DNA from: an uncultured Chitinophagales bacterium
GTDB lineage: Bacteria > Bacteroidota > Bacteroidia > Chitinophagales > JAHDHT01
Length of the DNA: 37,858 nucleotides
Direction of reading: 5' to 3'
NCBI GenBank assembly: GCA_938023075.1
Contig: CALHDG010000155.1
Coordinates: 1 to 37,858 of the forward strand
Both the position numbers and the translations under genes were made by a program. Of this stretch, positions 2,897 through 33,436 are shown piece after piece (position 1 is the first letter of the stretch; each line of letters opens with the position of its first letter). The notes beneath the pieces are model-generated. The model saw nothing but the letters and a program-made list of their open reading frames with translations, was not told the DNA's origin and did not search any database.

Positions 2897-3349
2897 AGTG
2901 TTTACATATTAATTGTATGATAAAAAATTCGTCAATCAAAATTGAGTGTTCGGTGTTCGATACTCGATATTTTTTGGATGACCCGTCTACCCGACTAAGT
3001 CCGCACACCCGCGTCATACTGAGATTTATGGAGCGAAGTGGAATAAATGCTCAGTATCCCCCAATTACTTCGACCATAGTTAGCATAACCAGTACTCTTT
3101 TTCAATCCGACAGATTTTGAGCAAGCTACTTCACTTCATTCAACATCTTCACTTAGCTAGAATTGCAGTTCCAAAACTTCGGAAAAAAGCGAAACTTAAG
3201 TTATAATGAAGGTACTACATTTCGCTTCAAAAAAATAATGCAATAGTGTCAACTAGTTTAATGTTTAGATAAATCTGTAAAATTTATCGTTTCTATATTG
3301 GAAAACGTTAACTTAGTAGTTAGCTTAACTAATGTAAATTCTAATTAAA
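2897..3349. other. Gene-free stretch with degenerate repeats
   Basis: This interval has no credible gene. At 3016-3057 an imperfect hairpin (ATACTGAG-ATTTAT with ATAAAT-GCTCAGTAT, one bulge) around GGAGCGAAGTGG resembles a degraded copy of the GTCATACTGAG-type palindromes common in this phylum. Short low-complexity pieces surround it. The part from about 3178 is a remnant of the MITE-A family, listed separately. Confidence 0.5.
3178..3279 (+). repeat. MITE-A remnant, right third
   Basis: CGGAAAAAAGCG near 3180 aligns with the core's right arm CGGAAAGCGGG. It is followed in order by TTTCGCTTCAAAAAAA, AGTGTCAACTAGTTT and TTTAGATAAATCTGT, the tail seen in the complete copies. The left arm and left half of the core are missing, so this is a decayed copy. 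It lies 70 bases before the gene at 3350. Confidence 0.55.
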
Positions 3350-10153: not shown

Positions 10154-10218
10154 TTTATTAGTTGATCGAAACAGATCCTAATCAAAATATTTATGAAGAT
10201 ATTTGGCATTAAAATAAT

Positions 10219-10469
10219 TGACAAGTTTATAAAAGTGGTTGATACTTTTTTGTTTTCGAGTGCCTTTGTTTTTTAATTTTCTACGAAGAACCGAAGTTTT
10301 TAAACTAGCCCCGATTGCAGCGGTTATGCTGCCTGAAGCGCAGAATTTTGTCGCATAGCCGCAGCATTTGAGCGGAAAGCGGGACTGCCCCATATTGAAA
10401 AGCATAATAGTTTCGCTTCAAAAAATATTAAAAAAGTGTCTACTACTTTATTGTTTAGATAAACTTGTT
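10219..10469 (+). mobile_element. MITE-A copy 2 (251 bp), complete
   Basis: A complete member. The left end TGACAAGTTTATAAAAGTGG and right end TTTAGATAAACTTGTT are imperfect inverted repeats. The 7-bp flanks AAATAAT (10212-10218 and 10470-10476) are identical. The central core at 10306-10385 starts TAGCCCCGATTGCAGCGG, has inner arms ATGCTGC/GCAGCAT and ends AAAGCGGGAC. The left arm shared with the other full copies includes CGAGTGCCTTTG and CGAAGAACCGAAG; the right arm has TTTCGCTTCAAAAAA. It lies 30 bases upstream of the hemL -7 element. Confidence 0.88.
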
Positions 10470-10499
10470 AAATAATCGTATACAAAAGCATTCTTTCTG

Positions 10500-14968: not shown

Positions 14969-15110
14969 CCAACAAAAATATCAAAACTAAATATAAATTG
15001 ACTTACAAATATTGAATTGATTTAATTATTATCAATTCGTAGTAGACTTACTTATTTATATGATGGCTATATTTATGGCATGTATATAAAGAGTGATGAG
15101 GTTGGAAGTT

Positions 15111-15188
15111 TAGCCCCGATAGCAGTGGTTATGCTGCTTGAAGTGTTTGCCCTTGTGCGGTGGCGCAGCATTTGAACGGATAGCGGGA
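15111..15188 (+). repeat. Structured core element without full MITE-A arms
   Basis: TAGCCCCGATAGCAGTGG, inner arms ATGCTGC and GCAGCAT, and ATTTGAACGGATAGCGGGA reproduce the MITE-A core. A GTTTCGCT plus A-rich tail follows near 15210. The distal arms do not match the full copies. An 11-bp direct repeat, ATGTATATAAA, lies at 15080-15090 and 15257-15267 on either side. The element fills most of the gap between the ligase start and the end of ribD. Confidence 0.75.
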
Positions 15189-15297
15189 AGCCCGTTTCTA
15201 CATGGTTACACTGTTTCGCTACTAAAAAATATAGTCATTTATACACCACGATAATAATGTATATAAAAAATAGACTTTGGTAGTTAAAAAACTTATT

Positions 15298-19206: not shown

Positions 19207-19335
19207 GAAGCGAACTATAAAGTTTAGCCCCGATTGCAGTGGTTATGCCGTTTGCAGCGTTGGCTTTGAAGCTGAGCACGGCATTTGAACGGAAAGCGGG
19301 ACTACCTTTAGCAATGAACACCGCACTTTCGCTTC
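19207..19335 (+). repeat. Structured core element with extended outer stem
   Basis: TAGCCCCGATTGCAGTGG begins at 19225 and AAAGCGGGAC ends near 19302. The inner stem here is ATGCCGT with ACGGCAT, a compensated variant of ATGCTGC/GCAGCAT in other copies. An outer stem, GAAGCGAA at 19207-19214 with TTCGCTTC at 19328-19335, encloses the core. An A-run follows, so on the plus strand it lacks the U-tract of an ordinary terminator. The full MITE-A arms are absent. It lies directly behind glyS. Confidence 0.8.
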
Positions 19336-21608: not shown

Positions 21609-21856
21609 AATAAGTGTATCGAAACAATAAAGCAGTTGACACTTTTGCTATAATTTTTTTGAAGCGAAACCTTATAGCATTATAATAACGTAGGTCCCGC
21701 TTTCCACTCAAATGCTGCGCCTACGCACAAATGCCAACGCTTCATGCAGCATAACCGCTGCAATCGGGGCTAGTTTAAAAACATCGGTTCTTCGTACAAA
21801 GCAAAACGGAGGCACTCAAAATCAGAAACAGTATCAACCACTTGATAAACTAGTCT
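21609..21856 (-). mobile_element. MITE-A copy 3 (248 bp), complete, inverted
   Basis: Read on the minus strand it has the family order: left end near ACTAGTTTATCAAGTGG, CGAAGAACCGATG, core TAGCCCCGATTGCAGCGG (21772 down to 21695) with arms ATGCTGC/GCAGCAT, AAAGCGGGAC, TTTCGCTTCAAAAAAA, GTCAACTGCTTTATTG, and a degenerate right end. Flanks are seven T on each side (21602-21608 and 21857-21863), consistent with a 7-bp target duplication, though homopolymers are weak evidence on their own. It sits 136 bases behind the lysyl-oxidase-like gene. Confidence 0.85.
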
Positions 21857-30125: not shown

Positions 30126-30178
30126 AAGAGGTATCTCATTTTTTTGAAACGAAACATGGCTTGTATTAATAAACGAAC

Positions 30179-30256
30179 TCCCTGCTATACACTCAAATGC
30201 TGCGGCTTGGCTTCAGTATCAACGCTTCAGCAGCATAACCGCTCCTATCAGGGTTA
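30179..30256 (-). repeat. Degenerate structured core element
   Basis: On the minus strand AACCCTGATAGGAGCGG, inner arms ATGCTGC/GCAGCAT, ATTTGAGTGTATAGCAGGGA, and a GTTTCGTTTCAAAAAAA tail near 30140 match the MITE-A core, with several substitutions. The inner stem is intact while the outer stem has changes (CCCTG with CAGGG) that keep pairing. The full MITE arms are not recognisable. Confidence 0.7.
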
Positions 30257-30301
30257 ATATTCCAACTTCTCTCGGCTTCAATAACGTTCTAAATAAAAAA
30301 C

Positions 30302-32970: not shown

Positions 32971-33036
32971 TATTTAATATTGGGTTTTCAAAATTGAGGT
33001 TAAACATTCTTACTACATGTATCTCTTCAAAAATAA

Positions 33037-33286
33037 TAGAAGGTTTATCCAATTGGTTTGTACTTTCCTGTTTACGAGTGCCTTTGTTTTTCTTTCAACG
33101 AAGCACCGAAGTTTGCAAACTAGCCCCGATTGCAGCGGTTATGCCATTTTGAGAGGCTTTTGTAGCGTTGGTAAAATGGCATTTGAGCGGAAAGCGGGAC
33201 CACCGTTATTATGATGCTACAAGTTTCGCTTCAAAAAAAAATCGATGTAAAAATGTCAATTAGTGTATGGTTTAGATAAACTTATC
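33037..33286 (+). mobile_element. MITE-A copy 4 (250 bp), complete
   Basis: The flanks AAAATAA (33030-33036 and 33287-33293) are identical 7-mers. The left arm has CGAGTGCCTTTG and CGAAGCACCGAAG, the core runs 33121-33200, and the right arm has TTTCGCTTCAAAAAAA and TTTAGATAAACTTATC. The inner core stem is ATGCCATTTT paired with AAAATGGCAT, ten perfect pairs that differ in sequence from the other copies, which is compensatory change. It ends 37 bases upstream of the first sigma-54 promoter. Confidence 0.9.
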
Positions 33287-33322
33287 AAAATAATTCAACA
33301 AATATTGCCTGGTAATAAAAAG

Positions 33323-33348: not shown

Positions 33349-33436
33349 TAAACAAATGGATTACCAAAAAACATAAAATTATAGCATAATCGACTGGTTA
33401 ATAAAAGCCGCTTCTATTTTGGTAGCGGCTTTTTTC
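33349..33436 (+). ncRNA. Predicted small RNA A (about 88 nt), sigma-54 dependent
   Basis: The predicted start is 12 bases past the -12 element, and the end is a Rho-independent terminator: stem AAAAGCCGCT at 33403-33412 with AGCGGCTTTT at 33424-33433, ending in U. The block ATAGCATAATCGACTGG and the following GTTAATAAA just before the terminator are identical in the second copy at 33536, while the 5' part has diverged. The only frame, MDYQKT, is absent from copy B, so it is non-coding. There is no plus-strand gene downstream, so this is not a leader. Extent and function are inferred. Confidence 0.72.

Follow-up and report, generated by a model that had tools for sequence, protein, structure and literature searches.

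What is the structured core that recurs across the window, the whole 37,858-nt contig of an uncultured Chitinophagales bacterium analysed here, both within and outside a MITE, and is it under constraint? The 80-letter core is the hairpin of Flavo-1 (RF01705), a known hairpin with hundreds of intergenic copies in flavobacteria. A relation to Flavo-1 had been suggested by the first-pass annotation, and cmscan bears it out: the core at 33118-33205 lies above the curated RF01705 threshold, and the other six window cores align to the model at full length with 26.8-38.0 bits, below the gathering score (Table 1). With Flavo-1 as described (PMC2864571) the window cores share the outer strands TAGCCCCGATNGNAGYGG ... 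CGGANAGCGGGA, the internal loops, occurrence in Bacteroidetes and numerous intergenic copies. They differ in the inner stem, which is ATG(C)...(G)CAT rather than ATCCTTT/AAAGAT, in a longer loop, in a 3' arm that runs to GTTTCGCTTC and a string of A about 35 nt past the core, and in that most score slightly under the cut-off; Flavobacterium copies, in contrast, mostly end with AATAGCTCCTAAAAA immediately after the core.

Table 1. Flavo-1 cores, MITE-A elements and target-site duplications in the window.
Feature	Position	Strand	Details
Flavo-1 core	33118..33205	+	RF01705 43.1 bits, E 3.8e-6, gathering 42; inner stem ATGCCATTTT/AAAATGGCAT
Flavo-1 core in MITE-A truncated by contig start	8..95	+	RF01705 32.5 bits; right end GATAAACTTGTT at 165-176
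Flavo-1 core within MITE-A	10303..10390	+	RF01705 35.7 bits
Flavo-1 core within MITE-A	21689..21775	-	RF01705 34.4 bits
Stand-alone Flavo-1 core	15108..15194	+	RF01705 35.6 bits; without outer arms; 3' arm TTTCGCTACTAAAAAA retained
Stand-alone Flavo-1 core	19222..19307	+	RF01705 38.0 bits; without outer arms; inner arms retained
Stand-alone core, most diverged of the seven	30174..30259	-	RF01705 26.8 bits, E 0.12
Full MITE-A	33038..33286	+	Model match 33041-33284, full-length; left end AGAAGGTTTATC, right end GATAAACTTATC
Target-site duplication, left	33030..33037	+	AAAATAAT, exact match to right copy
Target-site duplication, right	33287..33294	+	AAAATAAT
MITE-A	10220..10469	+	Duplications 10212-10219 AAATAATT / 10470-10477 AAATAATC
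MITE-A	21609..21855	-	T7-8 run (+ strand) at either flank
MITE-A relic, right arm	3186..3276	+	Without intact Flavo-1 core; MITE-A model match

The anchor sequences reported earlier, TAGCCCCGAT at 33121 and AAAGCGGGA ending at 33199, were both verified. The exact anchor 10-mer occurs at 11, 10306, 15111, 19225 and 33121 (+) and at 21763-21772 (-); with at most one mismatch it matches nine times against 1.2 expected, a number reached in none of 100 shuffles. The inner stems also read as first described (ATGCTGC/GCAGCAT; ATGCCGT/ACGGCAT at 19225; the pair listed in Table 1 at 33121), and the minus-strand core at 30174-30259 carries TAACCCTGAT/AGCAGGG, a C-G to T-A change that altered both sides of the stem. 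All seven window cores lie outside ORFs of at least 80 aa. The copies at 15111, 19225 and 30179 had been said to lack the MITE-A arms; this holds for the outer arms (the terminal inverted repeats), but the inner 3' arm is still there, as GTTTCG(C/T)T(T/A)C with an A run after it, and the 19225 copy has the inner 5' arm ACGAAGAAGCGAAC as well.

In the whole genome, RF01705 matches were obtained for 143 of 150 scored candidates, 72 of them at or above the gathering score and the best at 65.9 bits. Extrapolation from 15 copies in 186 kb, a sample of contigs C1-C12 only, picked by number, gives about 500 copies per genome; our other statistics for this genome come from 1.06 Mb (about one sixth, 17%), partly selected for containing matches. 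The copies fall into two classes, one short and canonical (55-66 bits, ATCCTTT..AAAGAT) and one long, as in the window (ATGC..GCAT). Beyond the Rfam model, the copies of this genome have in common a 5' arm (ACGAAGAACCGAAGTTTGTAAAC) and, on the 3' side, an arm that terminates in GTTTCGCTTC plus A7. Comparison of these ends with those from Flavobacterium points to a common 3' end made up of GCT(C/T)C and a following A run, which a short insert may separate from the core. Flavo-1 cores without MITE-A arms were present in Flavobacterium, Chryseobacterium, Epilithonimonas, Halpernia, Soonwooa and Balneicella, and F. psychrophilum had 108 RF01705 matches among 150 scored candidates. Flavo-1 was also seen on MAG contigs labelled Candidatus Nitrotoga (L162) and Sphingobacterium (L193); binning contamination is likely at L162, because 3.8 kb of it aligns to Flavobacterium.

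The compensated stem changes that had been read from the window copies are matched by genome-wide compensation well beyond chance, and covariation persisted in the larger alignment. Pair 10-6, the outer pair that varies most, was paired in all 102 own copies (T-A 82, A-T 15, G-C 5; the best of 500 shuffles reached 77) and in 127 of 134 copies from other genomes, with 44 double changes. Across these 102 own and 134 foreign copies, pair 10-6 occurs as T-A, A-T, G-C and C-G, pair 15-1 as T-A and C-G, and pair 6-10 as C-G and T-A, to which F. psychrophilum adds A-T (CCCAGAT..AGCTGG); the outer pairs are nearly always Watson-Crick, with several positions changed on both strands. In the inner stem of 81 long-class copies, positions 4 and 5 were paired in 81/81 and position 6 in 80/81 (242 of 243 cells over positions 4-6, with two or three pair types per position), and wobble was found in 2 of 405 cells at the variable inner pairs (positions 2-6). 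Overall, G-T cells (about 26) outnumber A-C cells (about 6), and the Rfam strand is therefore the folded strand. Folding z-scores of -1.3 to -2.9 (+ strand) indicate an only moderately unusual energy, and since this test is weak by itself the argument is built on covariation. At one orthologous site (L133/L192, in G041/G042), in species about 91% identical, the outer strands and 3' flank are identical and the inner hairpin is wholly different with pairing preserved.

MITE-A, the element that surrounds the core at 33118-33205, measures about 245-250 nt and has 12-bp inverted ends (GACAAGTTTATC / GATAAACTTGTC) and 7-8 bp target duplications. It resembles other MITEs in its shortness, the lack of a coding ORF, the 12-bp inverted ends, the A/T-rich duplication of about 8 bp and the high copy number, but differs from them in bearing a hyper-conserved structured cargo. 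Among 35 full copies in 1.06 Mb, the 7-mer duplications had an identity of 0.70 versus 0.39 for mispaired flanks and were exact in 11, and the left end was found genome-wide 90 times with at most two mismatches, versus 0 for a reversed control pattern, and 124 times with at most three. The end was absent from 40/40 relatives searched, which are distant (one of the same family), and no autonomous transposon with MITE-A ends was found in 1.06 Mb and a further 30 end loci (about 17% of the genome).

Other mobile elements have inserted into MITE-A. A second MITE, about 235 nt long (CTAAGTGTTG.../...GACACTTAG), occupies one fixed point inside its Flavo-1 core (L096 902-390, L085, L077, L097, L090 and L106; also L343 and L356), and at L090 a third MITE (GGCTACCCGTCTAA..TTAGACGGGTAGCC) is nested in the second, with the 9-bp duplication GACACTTAG. 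The window relic at 3186-3276 is preceded by CACTTAGCTAGAATTGCAG, which is the junction left by the second MITE. The window contig itself starts within a MITE-A variant (1-176). Contigs L341 and L364 both end within this same core, at CTAGCCCCGATTGCAGCGGTT, and have a REP in their left arm, which indicates near-identical recent copies.

That the core is the older unit, taken up by MITE-A, had been proposed from the window copies and is now supported on four counts. About half of the own copies read lack outer arms and are flanked by unrelated sequence; such armless copies, together with the MITE-A-free cores of other genera, place the core before its capture. Capture is further supported because MITE-A has genuine inverted ends and target duplications and its end is missing from the 40 relatives. 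At L362 (1500-1800), MITE-A ends with an exact 8-bp duplication, AATTGAGG, enclose no Flavo-1 core, and in at least six MITE-A copies the core is interrupted by another MITE (GATT|GCAGCGG), one of which, at L096, still has its MITE-A duplication CCTTTGGT. The elements at L096 and L362 moved, and MITE-A is therefore mobile without an intact Flavo-1, which is its cargo. Thus one Flavo-1 was captured by a MITE and dispersed with it, beside older stand-alone copies. Mobility of the stand-alone copies themselves is unproven, because about 24,000 offset tests gave no target duplication that stood out from the noise. The search for empty sites yielded neither a clean one nor an excision: blasts of flanks in this genome gave just self-overlaps and one two-repeat mosaic, and between Flavobacterium species (83-94% identity) the sites were shared, unalignably diverged or, as at one orthologous site, decayed in place rather than excised.

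Dispersal by MITE-A allows the core to be compared with its own arms. Across 52 distinct full-length MITE-A copies, pairwise distance was 0.008 in the core (two outer strands) versus 0.258 in the arms, and non-consensus letters made up 8 of 2,080 in the 40 outer core columns and 635 of 3,484 in the arms. Nearest-neighbour arm distance had a mean of 0.125 (range, 0.066-0.318), and from the arm distance about 130 core changes were predicted on terminal branches alone; 8 were observed. Ascertainment is not an obvious explanation, because the copies were chosen by overall or end similarity and not by core, and gene conversion confined to two 20-nt strands is unlikely, because the middle between them is variable (23% divergence). 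Unpaired core positions are equally invariant, the inner stem may vary in sequence but pairs, and the loop is free. Stand-alone copies are more variable, with 9-13% at the same columns, partly from mixing of the short and long classes; they may be under weaker constraint or be older. The core is under constraint, and each dispersed core seems to be kept intact; constraint does not by itself demonstrate a functional role. What is new here is a core held near-constant across MITE-A copies whose arms have drifted.

Position and orientation bear on what kind of molecule is constrained. About 95% of placed copies (97/102) are intergenic in DNA that is 79% coding, and copies between co-oriented genes show no preference for one sense (22 same-sense, 27 antisense); in two complete Flavobacterium chromosomes no strand bias by replication arm was found. 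An intrinsic terminator was considered and rejected: the A run beyond the 3' arm lies on the wrong side for both strands. Five of 43 copies adjoin a terminator-like stem versus 0.4 expected, and Flavo-1 is thus sometimes beside terminators, yet no terminator itself because the A run is misplaced. In two Flavobacterium genomes, 6/6 rRNA operons checked have a Flavo-1 on each side, directed away from the operon: one about 0.7 kb upstream of 16S and antisense to the operon, the other right after 5S, sense and beyond a terminator-like stem (L308-L313). In the post-5S variant the outer stem has GGG/CCC exchanged, and the closing ends read GCGTT/AACGC. Some other carriers lack this arrangement, with no Flavo-1 at their 5S. 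In the window, 33368-33431 gave an NsiR4-like match of 28.2 bits, under the cut-off of 40; its GC-rich stem (AAGCCGC..GCGGCTT) is probably a terminator between convergent genes.

REP elements, which are recognised by their transposases (RAYT/TnpA-REP), are a close comparison in the way they work (PMC8266576). Like them, Flavo-1 is an imperfect hairpin present between genes in hundreds of copies, keeps its mismatches conserved, folds from one strand, and has an xTAG tag at its 5' base; the tag differs in being mostly (C/T/A)TAG, not GTAG. Membership of a RAYT-linked REP family was rejected, as no Y1 gene recurs near Flavo-1 at the loci examined and none was detected in F. psychrophilum; nor was a Y1 transposase detected in the carriers Balneicella and G029. 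The RAYT-like Y1 genes examined in this genome sit among other REPs, those at L051 and L055 having their own palindromic repeats alongside (CCTCGTTTGTAACGAGG and AGATTTGTAATCTCGCC types). Of 20 Y1 loci tested in other carriers, none had Flavo-1 within 1.5 kb, and the IS200-type gene at L049, which was the single close neighbour, did not recur elsewhere. Across 41 genomes, Y1 was present in 14 of 16 Flavo-1 carriers versus 12 of 25 others (P = 0.019), a weak association that may be an effect of genome size.

Flavo-1 could instead be a functional RNA motif, either a trans-acting sRNA or a protein-bound UTR element, of which MITE-A spreads ready-made copies. Rfam classes it as 'sRNA' and Weinberg et al. 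rated it 'probably RNA' (PMC2864571), and the covariation, the invariant internal loops and the tolerance of G-T above A-C on one strand are consistent with this, as is the coincidence of some F. psychrophilum 5' transcribed regions with Flavo-1 matches (PMC9723704). However, Guerin et al. (PMC9723704) found F. psychrophilum matches equally sense and antisense of transcripts and often untranscribed, orientation relative to genes is even here, wobble is scarce at the inner variable pairs, and the rRNA-flanking copies of Flavobacterium lie past the terminator-like stem after 5S. An ordinary RNA gene is disfavoured because of the missing orientation preference and these published transcriptome data, and we hold an RNA role to be a possibility on the unlikely side. 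Less probable still is a purely selfish repeat with no host role, in which the core is the part needed for spread and its invariance comes from recent active sources. The high copy number, intergenic location and lineage-specific arms would suit such a repeat, as would the restriction of MITE-A to this genome (versus 40 relatives) and contig breaks inside near-identical copies, which suggest recent activity; against it, in these very copies the arms have drifted far enough to predict the core changes that are missing, and the movement of L096 and L362 with Flavo-1 interrupted or absent makes the core unnecessary for MITE-A. Template switching between hairpin arms in replication would produce compensated changes with the structure as a palindrome by-product, and template-switch repair can create perfect stems without function (PMC8794818). 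The A-T/T-A flips nearly without intermediates and the orthologous site at which the whole inner stem was replaced beside unchanged outer strands agree with such switching, but arm-to-arm copying cannot explain equally invariant unpaired core letters, and we consider it very improbable.

The reading that we prefer, at about even confidence, is a strand-specific hairpin that is read as folded single-stranded DNA in the manner of REPs, was captured and dispersed by a MITE, and has its copies kept intact. A protein would recognise the hairpin, which forms from one specific strand, with folded single-stranded DNA at work, e.g., on the lagging strand or during recombination; by analogy with REP transposases, the reader may be a strand-specific hairpin-binding enzyme or a host protein. 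After dispersal, purifying selection or repeated renewal would preserve each copy. A DNA role is favoured over an RNA role because position ignores transcription; both the step from constraint to DNA rather than RNA and the reader protein are what we infer. A bolder version, which we find rather doubtful, is that Flavo-1 provides the genome with a set of single-strand hairpins for an undescribed protein of Bacteroidota to recognise, each copy being under purifying selection at whatever place it inserts, with the MITE recruited in this lineage to seed sites and no RNA gene involved.

Since 2010 (Weinberg et al. 2010, PMC2864571), Flavo-1 has counted as a probable RNA with no function assigned to it, and the present case warns that covariation and copy number alone are insufficient to call it an sRNA gene. 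By copying one core to many unrelated places, the MITE has provided a natural experiment in which changes in the core can be told apart from changes in the DNA around it, and whether Flavo-1 is functional, and whether as RNA or as DNA, are now testable questions.
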